64,000 nt of DNA from Flavobacterium crocinum (GTDB lineage: Bacteria; Bacteroidota; Bacteroidia; Flavobacteriales; Flavobacteriaceae): NCBI RefSeq assembly GCF_003122385.1, contig NZ_CP029255.1, positions 3,968,001 through 4,032,000 of the forward strand, in the 5' to 3' direction. The position numbers were made by a program, and so were the translations under genes. Within the stretch, counting starts at the first letter, position 1. Every line of letters begins with the position of its first letter. Below the pieces are notes generated by a model. It worked only from the letters and a program-made list of their open reading frames with translations. It did not search any database and had not been told where the DNA came from. Of this stretch, positions 39,004-61,313 are shown piece after piece.

Positions 39004-39063
39004 ATGATTTCAATTCAATTACATCATCATCATTTACATTATTGCTCTCAAGCGATGTGTTAA
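39004..39063 (+). CDS. hisL: his operon leader peptide
   Basis: A 19-codon frame starts at the ATG at 39004 and ends at TAA 39061-39063: MISIQLHHHHLHYCSQAMC. Five of 19 residues are histidine, with four consecutive CAT codons and a fifth two codons on. It lies between the his promoter and a strong terminator hairpin upstream of hisG. By analogy with enterobacterial his attenuation, a ribosome stalled at the His codons when charged tRNA-His is scarce would favour an alternative fold and read-through into the structural genes. ATTTACAT inside the frame (39032-39039) is complementary to ATGTAAAT just after it (39072-39079), a candidate competing stem. The function is inference from architecture. 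Confidence 0.9.
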   Translation: MISIQLHHHHLHYCSQAMC

Positions 39064-39091
39064 TGGTATGCATGTAAATCATCATATTTTA

Positions 39092-39124
39092 AAACCCGTT
39101 TGAGTACATCAAACGGGTTTTTTA
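39092..39124 (+). terminator. his attenuator terminator
   Basis: AAACCCGTTT (39092-39101) pairs perfectly with AAACGGGTTT (39111-39120) around a 9-base loop, followed by T residues. It is 28 bases after the hisL stop and 54 bases before hisG, where a constitutive terminator would make no sense; this supports attenuation. Confidence 0.9.
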
Positions 39125-52932: not shown

Positions 52933-52967
52933 GCAGTATAATTTCATTAAAATGAATTTCATACTGC
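52933..52967. promoter_or_regulatory. 35-base palindrome between the divergent helical-protein gene and leuA
   Basis: GCAGTAT (52933-52939) pairs with ATACTGC (52961-52967), with imperfectly paired inner TTTCATT / AATGAA. It overlaps the expected -33 region of the leuA promoter, a position suited to an operator. Confidence 0.5.
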
Positions 52968-52987
52968 GATAGTACAATATATATTTG
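52957..52987 (+). promoter_or_regulatory. promoter of leuA
   Basis: TATATTTG (52980-52987) is a good -7 element and TTTC (52957-52960), 19 bases upstream, stands for TTTG. The leuA ATG at 53017 is 30 bases downstream; there is no room for a leader-peptide attenuator. Confidence 0.6.
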
Positions 52988-53001: not shown

Positions 53002-54198
<1,197 letters not shown>

Positions 54199-54252: not shown

Positions 54253-55371
54253 ATGAATTTGAAAATTGCAGTTTTGCCGGGAGACGGAATTGGACCTGAG
54301 GTTCTTTTACAAGCAAAAAAAGCTTTATACGCTATTGCTGAAGTTTACAATCATGAATTTGTTTTTGAAGATGCGCTCATGGGAGCAGTTGCAATTGATA
54401 AAACAGGAAATCCTTTGCCGGAACAAACACTTAATCTGTGTTTAAATACAGATGCAGTTTTGCTTGGAGCAATTGGCGATCCAAAATATGATAACAATCC
54501 AAATGCAAAGGTTCGTCCGGAACAGGGATTATTAAAGCTTCGTAAAGAATTGGGTCTGTTTGCTAACATTCGTCCAATTAAACCTTACAAAGCGTTAATT
54601 GAAGCTTCTCCTTTAAAAAGAGAAATTATTGAAGGAGCTGATTTTACAATTTTCAGAGAATTAACTGGTGGTGCTTACTTTGGTGAAAAAACACTGAATG
54701 AAGCAGGAACACACGCCTCAGATTTATGTGAATATTCAGAAGAAGAAATTACCAGAATTGCACATTTAGCTTTTAAAGCGGCTCAAAAACGACGCAAAAA
54801 GCTAACAATGGTTGATAAAGCAAATGTTTTGGAAACTTCAAGATTGTGGAGAAAAGTAGTTCAGAAAGTGAGCGAGAGTTATCCGGATGTTAAACTTGAT
54901 TTCTTATTTGTTGACAATGCGGCAATGCAGTTAATTTTAAATCCAAAACAATTTGACGTGATTTTGACTGAAAACTTGTTTGGAGATATTTTATCTGATG
55001 AAGCAAGTGTAATTACAGGATCTATTGGTTTATTGCCATCAGTGTCTTTAGGAGAAAAGAATGCTTTGTTTGAACCAATTCACGGATCATATCCTCAGGC
55101 AAAGGGAAAAAACATTGCCAATCCGATTGCTTCTATTTTAGCAGCAGCCCTTTTGTTAGAGCATTTCGGGTTAACTAAAGAAGCTAATGTGGTTTATAAA
55201 GCAGTAGAAAAAGCAATTGAATACAAGGTAGTTACAGTTGATTTAAAACCAGACTCTAAATTCGGTACAAACGAAGTAGGGGAATTTGTTTCGAATTTTA
55301 TTTTCAGTAAAGATGATTTACTGTATTTTAATAATGATAATGTAAGTATTGGACAATCTACAATTGTTTAA
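54253..55371 (+). CDS. leuB: 3-isopropylmalate dehydrogenase
   Basis: LeuB oxidises and decarboxylates 3-isopropylmalate to 2-oxoisocaproate. The 372-residue protein has MNLKIAVLPGDGIGPEVLLQA, LLKLRKELGLFANIRP (substrate loop of LeuB), RELTGGAYFGEKT, the DKANVLETSRLWR active site, VDNAAMQLILNPKQFDVILTENLFGDILSDEAS and FEPIHGSYP. The LLKLRKELGLFAN block marks it as LeuB rather than isocitrate or tartrate dehydrogenase. leuC/leuD are not in the window. Confidence 0.96.
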   Translation: MNLKIAVLPGDGIGPEVLLQAKKALYAIAEVYNHEFVFEDALMGAVAIDKTGNPLPEQTLNLCLNTDAVLLGAIGDPKYDNNPNAKVRPEQGLLKLRKELGLFANIRPIKPYKALIEASPLKREIIEGADFTIFRELTGGAYFGEKTLNEAGTHASDLCEYSEEEITRIAHLAFKAAQKRRKKLTMVDKANVLETSRLWRKVVQKVSESYPDVKLDFLFVDNAAMQLILNPKQFDVILTENLFGDILSDEASVITGSIGLLPSVSLGEKNALFEPIHGSYPQAKGKNIANPIASILAAALLLEHFGLTKEANVVYKAVEKAIEYKVVTVDLKPDSKFGTNEVGEFVSNFIFSKDDLLYFNNDNVSIGQSTIV

Positions 55372-55430
55372 TATTTTTTGTTAAAAAGTGAAGATAATCA
55401 CAAGAAGTATTTGAAATGTTGAGATTATAT

Positions 55431-55461
55431 TTTTTTAGTTCCAAAGGTTTGTCTACCTTTG
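55431..55461 (+). promoter_or_regulatory. promoter of the ilv operon, overlapped by a small inverted repeat
   Basis: TACCTTTG (55454-55461) fits the -7 element; TTTT (55431-55434) is 19 bases upstream. CAAAGGT (55442-55448) and ACCTTTG (55455-55461) form a perfect 7-base inverted repeat covering the -7 element. Transcription would start about 15 bases before ilvL. Confidence 0.65.
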
Positions 55462-55481
55462 TGACACTAAAAAAGTAAATG

Positions 55482-55556
55482 ATGCAAATCTCAATTATTA
55501 TTATTTCTGTCGTTGTTGTCAATGTGATTCACACATCTGCATCGGGAATGTTATAA
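55482..55556 (+). CDS. ilvL: ilv operon leader peptide
   Basis: A 24-residue frame from ATG 55482 (or ATG 55479, one codon earlier) to TAA 55554-55556. It starts MQISIIIISVVVVNVIH and ends TSASGML. Ile is at positions 3, 5-8 and 16, and Val at 10-13 and 15, so 11 of 24 residues are products of the operon that follows. It is set between the ilv promoter and a terminator hairpin upstream of ilvD. The arrangement is that of multivalent ilv attenuation: shortage of charged tRNA-Ile or tRNA-Val would stall the ribosome and prevent termination. Leucine is nearly absent from the run (only the last residue), so leucine control would be weak. Function is inference. Confidence 0.9.
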   Translation: MQISIIIISVVVVNVIHTSASGML

Positions 55557-55580
55557 ATATAATTGAAAAACTATATTACA

Positions 55581-55610
55581 AACCTTCCAAATACTGGAAG
55601 GTTTTTTTTT
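55581..55610 (+). terminator. ilv attenuator terminator
   Basis: AACCTTCCA (55581-55589) pairs with TGGAAGGTT (55595-55603) around a 5-base loop, followed by a run of T to 55610. It lies 24 bases after ilvL and 31 bases before the ilvD start. Confidence 0.92.
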
Positions 55611-55641
55611 GAATAAAAAATTAAAAAAAAATAAAACTATA

Positions 55642-57315
55642 ATGGAATTAAATAAGTACAGCAAGACCATCACTCAAGATCAAACACAGCCTGCGGCGCA
55701 AGCGATGTTGTACGGAATTGGTTTAACTGAAGAAGATTTGAAAAAAGCACAAGTAGGTATTGTGAGCATGGGTTACGATGGTAACACTTGTAATATGCAC
55801 TTGAATGATTTAGCAAAAGATGTTAAAAAAGGTGTTTGGGATGCAGATCTTGTCGGACTTATTTTTAATACTATTGGAGTTAGTGACGGAATTTCTAACG
55901 GAACAGAAGGGATGCGTTATTCTTTGGTTTCTCGTGATGTAATTGCAGATTCTATTGAAACGGTTGCAGGAGCACAATGGTACGATGGTATTATTGCAAT
56001 TCCTGGCTGTGATAAAAATATGCCTGGAGCATTGATTGCGATGGGTAGATTAAACCGTCCGGCAATGATGGTTTATGGAGGATCTATTCACTCAGGAAAA
56101 TGGAAAGGAGAATCTTTAAATATCGTTTCTGCTTTTGAGGCTTTAGGAAAAAAAGTAAAAGGCGAAATTACTCCGGAAGATTTTAAAGGTGTTATTCAAA
56201 ATGCTTGCCCGGGTGCTGGGGCTTGTGGCGGTATGTATACTGCAAACACAATGTCTTCTGCAATTGAAGCATTAGGAATGAGTATGCCATACAGTTCTTC
56301 CAATCCGGCTTTAAGTCAGGAAAAAAGAGATGAATGCGTTGCTGCCGGAGCTGCAATGAGAGTTTTATTAGAAAAAGATATTAAGCCAAGAGATATCATG
56401 ACTCGCAAAGCTTTCGAAAATGCTATTACAATTGTAGCAGTGTTAGGAGGTTCTACAAATGCAGTTATGCACTTAATCGCAATGGCTCACTCTGTTGGTA
56501 TCACAATCACTTTGGACGATTTTCAGGCAATTAATGACAGAACTCCTGTTCTTGCTGATATGAAACCAAGTGGCAAATATATGATGGAAGATATTCATGA
56601 AGTTGGAGGTATTCCTTCGGTTATGAAATATTTATTAAAAGTAGGACTTATTCATGGTGATTGTTTAACTGTAACAGGAAAAACAGTGGCAGAGAATTTA
56701 GCATCTACTCCGGATTTACAAGATGGACAAGAAGTAATCCATGAAATTCAAAAAGCTTTAAAACCAACTGGAAATATTCAGGTATTATACGGGAATCTTG
56801 CTTCTGAAGGTGCTGTTGCAAAAATCAGTGGCAAAGAAGGGGAATATTTCGAAGGTCCAGCTGTAGTATTTGAAGGTGAATTTGAAGTAATTCCAGGTCT
56901 TCAGGCCGGAAAAATTAAACCAGGTAATGTAGTCGTCATCAGGTATTGCGGACCAAAAGGTGGTCCAGGGATGCCTGAAATGCTGAAACCTACATCTGCT
57001 ATTATTGGTGCCGGATTAGGAAGCAGTTGTGCTCTGATCACAGACGGTAGGTTCTCTGGAGGTTCGCATGGCTTCGTGGTAGGACACGTTACACCAGAGG
57101 CTTATGATGGTGGTGGTATTGCACTAGTACAAGATGGAGATATAATCGCTATCGATGCTGTAAAAAATACAATCGACCTGAAAATATCTGAAGAGGAATT
57201 TGCAGCTAGAAAAGCGGCTTGGGTTCAGCCGCCTTTAAAGGTGCAAAGAGGAGTTTTACTTAAATATGCAAGATCGGTTTCTAGTGCATCAACTGGCTGT
57301 GTAACCGATAATTAA
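55642..57315 (+). CDS. ilvD: dihydroxy-acid dehydratase
   Basis: This iron-sulfur enzyme makes the 2-keto acid precursors of isoleucine and valine. The start is ATG 55642 ([13 protein letters not shown]), 557 residues, normal for the family; a frame open from the T-run at 55609 is rejected. Cluster cysteines are within [21 protein letters not shown] and [17 protein letters not shown]. The C-terminal half has [22 protein letters not shown] and GHVTPEA. It is the first structural gene after the ilv attenuator. Confidence 0.97.
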
Positions 57316-57481: not shown

Positions 57482-59170
57482 ATGAAAATATCAGGGGCAG
57501 AAGCCGTTATAAGATGTTTGTTAGAAGAAGGAGTAGATTTAATTTATGGTTACCCGGGTGGTGCTATAATGCCGGTTTACGACGAATTATATAAATTTCA
57601 GGATCAGTTACACCATGTTTTAGTTCGTCACGAACAAGGTGCAACACATGCAGCTCAGGGTTATGCAAGAGCTACAGGAAAAGTAGGGGTGGCAATTGCT
57701 ACTTCGGGACCAGGAGCAACTAATTTAGTTACAGGTATTGCCGATGCACAAATTGACTCAACTCCAATGGTGTGTATTACAGGTCAGGTTGGAAGACATT
57801 TATTAGGTTCTGATGCTTTTCAGGAGACTGATATTATTGGAATTTCAACTCCGGTTACAAAATGGAATTTTCAGGTAACTGAGGCATCTCAGATTCCAGA
57901 AATTATGGCGAAAGCCTTTTATATTGCACGTTCTGGACGTCCAGGTCCAGTATTAGTTGATATTACTAAAAATGCTCAGTTTGATGAGTTTGAATTTAGT
58001 TATGAAAAATGTACTGGAATTAGAAGTTATACTCCGGTTCCAAAATTGAATTTAGATAAAGTTGCTGAAGCGGCGGCTTTAATTAATAGTGCTAAAAAAC
58101 CGCTTATTGTTTTTGGTCAGGGAATTATCTTGGGTCAGGCCGAAGCAGAATTCAAAGCTGTAGTAGAGAAATCAGGAATTCCGGCTGCGTGGACCATTCT
58201 AGGTTTGTCAGCATTGCCAACAGATCATCCTTTAAATGTTGGAATGTTAGGAATGCATGGAAATTATGCGCCAAACTTAATGACAAATGAGTGCGATGTA
58301 TTAATTGCTTTCGGAATGCGTTTTGACGACCGTGTTACTGGAAATCTTAACACTTATGCAAAACAGGCAAAAGTAGTTCACTTTGAAATTGATCCGGCTG
58401 AAATTGATAAAAACGTTAAAACAGAAATCGCTGTTTTAGGTGATGTAAAAGAATCTTTAGCTGCTTTATTACCATTGATTGATGCTAAATCGCATGATTT
58501 ATGGCACAATGAATTCAAAGCTTTAAAAGAAGTTGAATTTAATTCTGTTATTAAAGAAGAATTAAATCCAACAAATGGCAAAGGAATTTCAATGGGTGAA
58601 ACTGTTGAAATGATTAACAAACATTCAAAAGGTGATGCGATTATTGTTACTGATGTTGGTCAGCACCAAATGTTTGCTTGTCGTTATGCAAAATTCAATT
58701 CAACAAAAAGTAATATTACTTCCGGCGGATTAGGAACAATGGGATTTGCTTTACCAGCTGCTATCGGAGCTAAAATGGGTAAACCGGAACGTGAAGTAGT
58801 AGCGATTATTGGCGATGGAGGCTTTCAAATGACAATTCAGGAATTGGGTACAATTTTCCAGACTCAGGTTCCGGTTAAGATTGTTATTTTAAATAATGAA
58901 TTTTTAGGAATGGTACGTCAATGGCAGGAATTGTTCTTTGACAATCGATATGCATCAACAAAAATGATCAATCCAAATTTTGTTGCTATTGCAGAAGGAT
59001 ACCATATTAAATCTAAAAAAGTAACACAACGTGAAGATTTAGACGAAGCAGTTGCAGAAATGCTGGCTTCAAAAGATTCTTACTTCTTAGAAGTCATGGT
59101 GGAAAAGGAAAACAATGTTTTCCCTATGATTCCAACAGGAGCATGTGTTTCAGAAATTAGATTAAGCTAA
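57482..59170 (+). CDS. ilvB: acetolactate synthase, large (catalytic) subunit
   Basis: This thiamine-diphosphate enzyme condenses pyruvate with pyruvate or 2-ketobutyrate. From ATG 57482 (MKISGAEAVIRCLLEEGVDLIYGYPGG) it is 562 residues. The ThDP glutamate is in HEQGATHAAQGYAR, the quinone/FAD-related region is PVKIVILNNEFLGMVRQWQELFF, and the ThDP motif GDGGFQMTIQELGT is present. FAD-binding blocks include GMLGMHG and FGMRFDDRVTGN. It needs the IvlN-type regulatory subunit encoded next. Confidence 0.97.
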   Translation: MKISGAEAVIRCLLEEGVDLIYGYPGGAIMPVYDELYKFQDQLHHVLVRHEQGATHAAQGYARATGKVGVAIATSGPGATNLVTGIADAQIDSTPMVCITGQVGRHLLGSDAFQETDIIGISTPVTKWNFQVTEASQIPEIMAKAFYIARSGRPGPVLVDITKNAQFDEFEFSYEKCTGIRSYTPVPKLNLDKVAEAAALINSAKKPLIVFGQGIILGQAEAEFKAVVEKSGIPAAWTILGLSALPTDHPLNVGMLGMHGNYAPNLMTNECDVLIAFGMRFDDRVTGNLNTYAKQAKVVHFEIDPAEIDKNVKTEIAVLGDVKESLAALLPLIDAKSHDLWHNEFKALKEVEFNSVIKEELNPTNGKGISMGETVEMINKHSKGDAIIVTDVGQHQMFACRYAKFNSTKSNITSGGLGTMGFALPAAIGAKMGKPEREVVAIIGDGGFQMTIQELGTIFQTQVPVKIVILNNEFLGMVRQWQELFFDNRYASTKMINPNFVAIAEGYHIKSKKVTQREDLDEAVAEMLASKDSYFLEVMVEKENNVFPMIPTGACVSEIRLS

Positions 59171-59258: not shown

Positions 59259-59780
59259 ATGGAAGATAAAACATTTACCATATCGGTATACTCAGAAAAT
59301 AACGTGGGATTGTTGAACAGAATATCGGGGATATTCTTAAAGCGTCACATTAACATATTAAGTCTAAATGTTTCTGAATCAGAAATAGAGAATGTTTCAA
59401 GATTTATCATTGTAGTAAATACAACAGAGAAATGGGTTCAGAATATTGTTGGACAAATTGAAAAACAAATTGAAGTTATAAAAGCATTTTATCATACAGA
59501 TGAAGAGACTATTTTCCTGGAAAATGCTTTATTTAAAATCGCTTCAAGTTTGTTGTTTGACGAGAAACAAATTCAGAATATCATCAAGGAGAGTCAGGCT
59601 ACGATTGTAACTGTTTCTCGTGATTTCTTCGTGATTTCGAAATCAGGAAGACGTTCTGAAATTGAAGAACTTTATGCAAAATTCAAACCATACGGAATTA
59701 TGCAGTTTGTACGTTCAGGAAGAATTTCGGTTTCTAAACAAAAAATGGAAATTTCAAGTTTGTTGGAATCGTTCAAATAA
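59259..59780 (+). CDS. ilvN: acetolactate synthase, small (regulatory) subunit
   Basis: The regulatory subunit with an N-terminal ACT domain (FTISVYSENNVGLLNRISGIFLKRHINILSLNVSES, residues 5-40) that binds valine in the family, and a C-terminal ACT-like half (VTVSRDFFVISKSGRRSEIEELYAKFKPYGIMQFVRSGRISV). The 173-residue length is close to the 160-170 of IlvH/IlvN. It gives feedback control on the enzyme in addition to attenuation of the operon. Confidence 0.95.
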   Translation: MEDKTFTISVYSENNVGLLNRISGIFLKRHINILSLNVSESEIENVSRFIIVVNTTEKWVQNIVGQIEKQIEVIKAFYHTDEETIFLENALFKIASSLLFDEKQIQNIIKESQATIVTVSRDFFVISKSGRRSEIEELYAKFKPYGIMQFVRSGRISVSKQKMEISSLLESFK

Positions 59781-59843: not shown

Positions 59844-61313
59844 ATGGCAAATTATTTCAATACATTACCACTTAGATTACAATTAGAACAATTAGGGGTT
59901 TGCGAATTTATGGAGCAATCAGAATTTGCAGACGGAATTGCAGCATTAGCTGGAAAGAAAGTTGTGATCGTGGGTTGTGGAGCACAAGGTTTGAATCAAG
60001 GATTAAATATGAGAGATTCTGGTTTAGATATTTCTTATGCATTACGTGCAGATGCAATAGCTGAAAAAAGAGCTTCTTATAAAAATGCGACTGAAAATGG
60101 TTTCAATGTAGGAACTTATGAAGAATTGATTCCAACTGCAGACTTAGTTTGTAATCTTACACCAGACAAACAACATACAGCTGTGGTAACTGCTATTATG
60201 CCATTAATGAAAAAAGATTCTACTTTATCTTATTCTCATGGATTTAACATTGTAGAAGAAGGAATGCAGATTCGTAAAGACATCACTGTAATTATGTGTG
60301 CTCCTAAATGTCCAGGTTCTGAAGTACGTGAAGAGTACAAAAGAGGATTTGGAGTTCCAACTCTTATCGCAGTTCACCCGGAAAATGATCCAAACGGATT
60401 TGGTTTAGATCAGGCAAAAGCTTACGCTGTAGCAACTGGAGGTCACAGAGCGGGAGTTTTAAGATCATCTTTCGTAGCTGAAGTAAAATCAGATTTAATG
60501 GGAGAGCAAACTATTCTTTGTGGTTTATTGCAAACAGGATCTATTTTGTGTTTCGATAAAATGGTTGAAAAAGGAATCGATGCTGCTTACGCTTCAAAAT
60601 TAATTCAGTACGGATGGGAAACTATTACTGAAGCTTTGAAACACGGAGGTATCACAAACATGATGGATCGTTTAAACAATCCTTCAAAAATTGAAGCTTA
60701 CGAATTAGCTGAAGAATTAAAAGATATCATGCGTCCATTATTCCAAAAACACCAAGACGATATCATTTCTGGAGAATTCTCTAGAACTATGATGATTGAC
60801 TGGGCAAATGATGACGTTAACTTGTTAAAATGGAGAGCTGCAACAGGAGAGACTAACTTCGAAAAAACAGCTCCACAAGAAGCTCCAATCTCAGAGCAAG
60901 AATATTTTGACAATGGAGTATTAATGATTGCAATGGTAAAAGCTGGTGTAGAATTAGCTTTCGAAACAATGACAGAAGCTGGTATCATCGAAGAATCTGC
61001 TTACTACGAGTCATTACACGAATTGCCATTAATTGCTAACACAATTGCAAGAAAGAAATTATTCGAAATGAACCGCGTAATTTCTGATACAGCTGAATAC
61101 GGATGTTATTTATTTGATCATGCATGTAAGCCATTATTGACTGAATTCATGAAAAAAGTAGATACTAATATCATAGGAAAACCGTTTTCAACTTCAAATG
61201 CAGTTGATAATGCAGTATTAATTGCTGTAAATAGAGAAATTCGTCAACATCCTATCGAAGAAGTGGGAGCTTGGTTGAGAGAGTCTATGACAGCTATGAA
61301 GAAAATTGGATAA
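59844..61313 (+). CDS. ilvC: ketol-acid reductoisomerase, class II (long)
   Basis: IlvC isomerises and reduces acetolactate or acetohydroxybutyrate. The 489-residue length marks the class II (E. coli-like) form, with a duplicated knotted domain. Motifs: [29 protein letters not shown] (NADPH loop), [41 protein letters not shown] and [24 protein letters not shown] with metal Asp and Glu; later [14 protein letters not shown]. It is the last gene of the ilv block. Confidence 0.97.

Follow-up and report, generated by a model that had tools for sequence, protein, structure and literature searches.

The ilv leader region

The window analyzed here, the whole stretch of 64,000 nucleotides from the Flavobacterium crocinum contig NZ_CP029255.1, carries leuA and leuB followed by ilvD, ilvB, ilvN, and ilvC, with all six names backed by NCBIfam. 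A spacer of 270 nt separates the stop of leuB (55371) from the start of ilvD (55642), and it holds a promoter box, a short leader frame, and an intrinsic terminator (Table 1). The genes downstream of the leader (ilvD, ilvB, ilvN, and ilvC) make the amino acids that it would sense.

The promoter box fits TAnnTTTG, described as the flavobacterial promoter consensus (PMC9723704), and a generic sigma-70 scan gave no fitting plus-strand site between leuB and the leader frame. The frame has 24 or 25 codons, depending on whether the ATG at 55482 or that at 55479 is taken as the start, and the second ATG alone is kept in the leader frames of some relatives. Counted from 55482, its 24 codons include 11 for isoleucine or valine and one for leucine, the last. 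The density of these residues, 10 within a 12-residue stretch of the ATG frame, was matched in 1 of 20,000 single-base shuffles of positions 55431 to 55645. The terminator stem begins 23 nt past the leader stop, and ilvD starts 37 nt past the stem. The 1-kb region around the leader contains two terminator-like sites, where 0.2 would be expected. A preliminary description of this DNA had proposed a promoter ahead of a 24-codon frame with 11 isoleucine or valine residues and almost no leucine in the regulatory run, all of which is borne out here; the terminator stem and T-run that it placed before ilvD are likewise present, with a stem of 10 bp rather than 9.

An Rfam search of the whole window returned no matches at the gathering threshold, T-box, riboswitch, and RF01692 models included. 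A perfect inverted repeat over the promoter (CAAAGGT-6-ACCTTTG, 55442-55461) is not kept in the relatives compared and was set aside as a chance occurrence.

Table 1. Features of the ilv leader and its neighboring genes (window coordinates)
Feature	Position	Strand	Basis or remark
leuB	54253..55371	+	TIGR00169 above cut-off; upstream neighbor, not behind the leader
Promoter -7 box TACCTTTG	55454..55461	+	Fits TAnnTTTG type
Leader ORF MMQISIIIISVVVVNVIHTSASGML*	55479..55556	+	Alternative start 55482; stop codon 55554-55556
P1 hairpin inside leader ORF (ATGTG-5-CACAT), possible pause hairpin	55522..55536	+	Covariation
Predicted antiterminator 5' arm (region 2), over last leader codons and stop	55545..55564	+	Pairing and folding; same place in relatives
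Predicted antiterminator 3' arm (region 3)	55569..55588	+	Shares 55580-55588 with terminator 5' arm
Intrinsic terminator hairpin AAACCTTCCA-5-TGGAAGGTTT	55580..55604	+	10 bp, loop 5
T-run of terminator	55602..55610	+	Sequence
ilvD, dihydroxy-acid dehydratase, putative first controlled gene	55642..57315	+	TIGR00110 above cut-off
ilvB, acetolactate synthase large subunit	57482..59170	+	TIGR00118 above cut-off (queried from 57485)
ilvN, acetolactate synthase small subunit	59259..59780	+	TIGR00119 above cut-off
ilvC, ketol-acid reductoisomerase	59844..61313	+	TIGR00465 and NF003557 above cut-off

A predicted switch between two structures

Regions 2 and 3 of the leader are complementary over 20 nt (75%). 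As region 3 includes nine bases of the terminator 5' arm, the antiterminator formed by these regions and the terminator are predicted to be mutually exclusive. Folded alone, the antiterminator reaches -7.1 kcal/mol (z -1.72) and the terminator -12.4 kcal/mol; the antiterminator is thus the weaker of the two, but its strands are transcribed before those of the terminator. Considered singly, the window leader gives a weak short duplex (z -0.8) between region 2 and the terminator arm. The P1 hairpin does not overlap region 2.

Conservation within Flavobacterium

The genus search covered 150 genomes, of which 80 had an ilvD match, and 70 loci from 69 genomes were used after verification through the ilvD N-terminus. 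Paralogous ilvD matches (46% identity or less) were excluded, as were 11 partial, broken, or unfetched genomes (G003, G011, G014, G060, G073, G095, G105, G125, G146, G147, and G148). In 45 of the 70 loci, ilvD is immediately preceded by an Ile/Val-rich leader with a terminator, so that the frame, whose absence from relatives would have counted against the earlier proposal, is in fact kept together with its terminator. Four further loci carry a leader and terminator farther upstream: in three, the units precede an aminotransferase-like gene located upstream of ilvD, which we take to be ilvE, and in the fourth (L146, inside the named locus L047) the unit lies 995 nt upstream and was counted. The remaining 21 loci show no unit within the stretch searched. 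Of the 25 loci lacking a unit immediately ahead of ilvD, 20 were followed upstream (all except L120, L125, L146, L147, and L148), and 17 of these gave no credible unit in up to 9 kb; a non-ATG frame in L169, weak and 3.9 kb from ilvD, was not counted. A locus without a unit may reflect a leader situated farther upstream.

The promoter box TAnnTTTG lies no more than 60 nt from the leader ATG in 42 of the 45 leaders, against an expectation of 0.008 per leader taken from farther-upstream, largely coding sequence. Of the 45 leaders, 39 contain at most one leucine. Alignment of the 39 distinct leaders gives 97.4% of terminator cells paired, with double-sided changes in three of ten pairs, and 94.9% of P1 cells paired, with such changes in three of five pairs; the outermost P1 pair is open in 10 leaders. 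The joint covariation score of P1 and the terminator was reached by none of the 500 shuffles and by no slide.

In fixed columns, the two antiterminator helices retain 84.6% and 90.7% of their cells, and double changes are few. The terminator arms contain CCTTCC in 22 leaders and CTCCC in 17, and our reading of the folds suggests that a near-invariant GGGAA may pair with either by a one-base shift. Because of this shift, the fixed columns would understate how well the antiterminator is conserved. Exchange of arms within the genus hardly discriminates (-7.8 for own arms versus -7.47 for swapped arms) because region 2 is nearly invariant.

Conservation across Bacteroidota

A first phylum set comprised 80 loci from named genomes, Bacteroidota by title as far as could be told, with three exceptions. 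These three are labeled as other phyla (L012, L034, and L079, as Planktophila, Thalassovita, and Sulfuriflexus); their IlvD sequences are 66 to 76% identical to that of the window, and they are probably mis-binned contigs. A fixed rule, requiring a short ATG frame rich in isoleucine, leucine, or valine with a terminator 10 to 45 nt on, was applied to the 1.7 kb ahead of ilvD; it located a unit in 49 of the 80 loci and none in 31. The sequence ahead of ilvD (134 kb) gave 56 matches and the control sequence (941 kb) one, an enrichment of about 390-fold; the control came from these same loci, from their reverse strands and the parts downstream, and is mostly coding.

For the pairing analysis, 52 units were hand-picked from the 80 phylum loci and the genus loci L166 to L168, leaving out out-of-frame overlaps, doubtful frames, and most of the near-identical Flavobacterium leaders. 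In 49 of the 52, the best partner of the terminator 5' arm starts between -25 and +10 nt from the leader stop, and the arms themselves differ widely in sequence. Pairing with the own arm averages -11.06 kcal/mol versus -8.05 kcal/mol with swapped arms, and none of 10,000 permutations gave an average as low as that of the own arms. The own arm ranks among the best 10% of partners in 22 units and the best 25% in 37. Against base shuffles the median z of arm pairing is -1.9, with a few units near or above zero. From the last isoleucine or valine codon to the antiterminator arm the median distance is 13 nt (sd 3.9, 49 units), and a stalled ribosome would cover about 13 nt, the spacing seen between codon and arm. 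The position of the arm at the leader stop could in part be an effect of the G-poor isoleucine codons.

A second draw took 118 genomes across the phylum, 47 of them with a match; three already seen were dropped, and 45 loci with 2.2 kb upstream were analyzed. A unit is present in 18 of these loci and 27 show nothing, with no match to the rule on the reverse strand (102 kb). The antiterminator arm lies at the leader stop in all 21 units found, with a median spacing of 16 nt. None of the 21 peptides occurs among the 52 units of the first set, although species may overlap between the draws, and some of these leaders are rich in leucine rather than in isoleucine and valine. A leader with a terminator ahead of ilvD is thus common in the phylum, but not universal.

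Units in series

Two complete ilv units stand in series in 6 of the 80 loci of the first phylum set (Myroides, two Chryseobacterium, Tenacibaculum, a Cyclobacteriaceae, and Lutibacter). The same holds for 3 of the 45 second-draw loci and for three genus loci out of the 20 traced farther upstream; one of these three, L166, has three units, the last two near-identical. The loci with two or three serial units are L166, L167, L168, L013, L027, L037, L051, L056, L068, L233, L235, and L259.

Amino acid leaders elsewhere in the genome

The ilv leader has several counterparts in its own genome. Within the window, a histidine leader, MISIQLHHHHLHYCSQAMC, and its terminator (39004-39121) precede hisG (39178), hisD, and hisC, with a TATATTTG box 43 nt before the ATG and an antiterminator arm that is again near the stop. 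A tryptophan leader, MRTILNNTWWWSNLRQTS, precedes a gene that scores best against the trpE family, though under the cut-off of that family, and the trp locus of this genome matches, at the place of this leader, the Rfam Bacteroid-trp model RF01692 at 73.7 bits. A phenylalanine leader, MATNRFYFSNNFYFFFSRSEDCAMVI, lies ahead of the prephenate dehydratase gene pheA. In addition, two Met/Cys-rich units in series (L185:513-810), MNLTAKNMCCMMSEQSAE and MKNSTVNKMMMCCKMPMCIQSCCCQK, precede a gene of the O-acetylhomoserine sulfhydrylase subfamily; these units may be attenuators sensing methionine and cysteine. Such a tandem recurs in 15 of 30 genus loci judged by eye (L193-L222, 61 genomes searched), and the other 15 have one Met/Cys unit or an unclear second. 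Arm pairing is stronger for the phe (z -3.9) and his (z -1.9) leaders and weak for trp, the second Met/Cys unit, and a second Met pair (z -0.1 to -0.2).

Scanning of the same genome gave no leader ahead of a ThrA-like gene (3134415) or ilvE. Three frames were not counted, two for a doubtful hairpin (L185:4493 and L185:4566) and one, ahead of ilvE, for want of residue enrichment (L190:2696). The suggestion that this window contains two attenuators and that attenuation is a general strategy of the genome thus agrees with the His, Trp, Phe, and Met/Cys units found besides the Ile/Val leader; of the trp, thr, leu, phe, and met genes named as places to look, trp and phe have leaders and Met/Cys units were found, and leuA, leuC, and the ThrA-like gene have none.

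The locus with the Met/Cys units also holds two more short frames with terminators (L185:3994-4301), which are followed by a SAM riboswitch (RF00162, 4775-4883, plus strand), and a SAM-II riboswitch (RF01726) lies on the minus strand nearby (L185:336-230).

The leucine branch

Upstream of leuA (53017), a TATATTTG box at 52980-52987 leaves an untranslated region of roughly 25 nt and therefore no room for a leader, in line with the earlier remark that the upstream leu genes lack one. The leader scan of this genome likewise found none ahead of leuA or leuC. The window LeuA (53017-54198, 393 amino acids) matches only to about position 384 of a 516-position family and, judged from this alignment, seems to be without the C-terminal regulatory domain; a second LeuA of the genome, which has the regulatory domain, is encoded near leuC at 1.426 Mb. 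Among the 20 genus loci with a leaderless ilvD that were followed upstream, 15 have leuB (12 loci) or leuA (3 loci) ending 40 to 69 nt before ilvD, so that in those relatives ilv probably shares the leu transcript. Separate control of the leucine branch, as put forward in the preliminary description, is consequently only partly upheld: the lack of leaders ahead of leuA and leuC speaks for it, and the second LeuA near leuC and the adjoining genes of the 15 relatives speak against it.

Upstream of the leuA promoter there is an imperfect palindrome, GCAGTAT...ATACTGC (52933-52967), which may be an operator. By eye, its left half recurs in relatives and its right half does not.

Discussion

The combination of an alternative antiterminator, conservation, and covariation gives the initial proposal of leader peptide attenuation a firmer footing. 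We consider the ilv leader to be a ribosome-mediated transcription attenuator that senses charged tRNA-Ile and tRNA-Val, with a probability of roughly 0.9. The reading frame, promoter box, terminator, exclusive pairing, and conservation can be read from the sequence and from its comparison with relatives; what we infer from them is where transcription starts, that the frame is translated, that ribosomes stall on it, that transcription terminates there in the cell, and that the P1 hairpin serves in pausing. RNA polymerase would start just past the TAnnTTTG box, and a ribosome would begin the leader peptide without a Shine-Dalgarno sequence. With isoleucine and valine plentiful, this ribosome would reach the leader stop and cover region 2, leaving region 3 free to pair with region 4, so that the terminator would end transcription. 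With either amino acid short, the ribosome would stall on the isoleucine or valine codons, the emerging region 3 would pair with region 2, no terminator would form, and ilvD, ilvB, ilvN, and ilvC would be transcribed. The genes for isoleucine and valine are thus most likely switched on when these amino acids run short.

It is also conceivable, though unlikely, that the same sensor uses the classic four-region layout, in which the 5' half of the antiterminator would be held by isoleucine codons left untranslated, so that a lack of translation would lead to termination. The MFE structure of the whole leader does pair the isoleucine codons (55491-55504) with the strand after the stop (55553-55566), and the covariation score of this pairing lies above 500 shuffles and slides. 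However, only 77.6% of its cells pair among the 39 leaders, double changes affect more pairs and more cells in the slid controls, and one clade is without an isoleucine run at that place. As such, a 1:2 protector is not clearly supported.

Action in trans of the leader peptide or of the short terminated transcript, as a small protein or small RNA, is far less probable still. The peptide is well conserved among close relatives, as would suit such a role, but it diverges between clades while the Ile/Val density and the arm pairing persist, and its C-terminal residues track the RNA pairing, with the endings SGML, EKGLV, and GEMV all containing the arm. The least credible reading is that the hairpin merely ends the transcript of leuA and leuB and that the Ile/Val frame arose by chance in an AT-rich spacer. 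Although leuB ends 209 nt before the stem and a scan of 55000-56000 found no other plus-strand terminator, the TAnnTTTG box stands between leuB and the frame and recurs in 42 of the 45 genus leaders, the frame and terminator are kept together in relatives and also ahead of the aminotransferase-ilvD pair, and the control rate is a single match in 941 kb.

Attenuation by tRNA-sensing leader peptides, as we propose for ilv, is established for the trp, his, ilvGMEDA, ilvBN, leu, thr, and phe operons of enterobacteria. The window leader shares with these a leader frame of cognate codons, a terminator, an exclusive antiterminator, and a cognate operon. It differs in belonging to another phylum, in having no Shine-Dalgarno sequence, and in the position of its antiterminator arm, which lies at the stop codon of the leader. 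Leaders of the ilvGMEDA type contain all three branched-chain residues, with leucine codons in the regulatory run, whereas isoleucine and valine predominate here and leucine is almost absent.

Several elements of this kind have been described for Bacteroidota. The Rfam family RF01692, Bacteroid-trp, is a tryptophan leader RNA of the same phylum (PMC2864571); the ilv leader does not match it and concerns another amino acid and another operon. In Flavobacterium psychrophilum there are strong clues for leader peptide attenuation upstream of amino acid operons, and the elements ahead of pheA and hisG are conserved in the family and have no Rfam hits (PMC9723704); the main text of that study contains no mention of ilv, and neither an antiterminator model nor tandem units were found there. 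For Bacteroides thetaiotaomicron, long 5' untranslated regions with short frames "reminiscent of leader peptides" have been reported and attenuation suggested (PMC7366714), the example being a hypothetical gene and the main text being again without ilv. Leader peptide clues in Flavobacterium, leader-like frames in Bacteroides, and the Rfam trp leader are therefore already known, and it follows from these reports that the window ilv leader belongs to a known class of attenuators. Among the literature matches listed, which lay outside supplements and most subscription papers, there was no ilv leader and no tandem amino acid leader for Bacteroidota; likewise, neither a stop-centered antiterminator rule nor same-signal tandem arrays were found in the literature reachable. 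Tandem leader attenuators as such are known from Salmonella mgtCBR, in which two leader frames in one leader RNA sense two different signals, ATP and proline (PMC3641672), whereas in the ilv arrays of Bacteroidota it is the complete Ile(/Val) unit, terminator included, that is repeated.

Bacteroidota mRNAs lack Shine-Dalgarno sequences (PMC6847099), and it follows that the tight timing between ribosome and polymerase would have to work without initiation driven by such a sequence. The principle of attenuation is textbook knowledge, but many Bacteroidota share this layout, and in some it stands two or three times serially. What is unusual is found beyond the window, in the serial ilv units of some relatives and in the Met/Cys tandem of the genus. 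We lean toward the view that the phylum widely uses, and multiplies, one minimal attenuator plan with the antiterminator arm centered on the leader stop. Such multiplication would account for the two or three units for the same amino acid that stand in series before one ilv operon and for the recurrent Met/Cys tandem of Flavobacterium, and a leader sensing methionine codons would represent an unusual signal. The rule that the terminator arm complements the leader stop region offers a simple finder for such elements in unannotated genomes. Serial units would be expected to lower basal leak and steepen the response to starvation, and they are well suited to testing whether a stack of attenuators sharpens that response.
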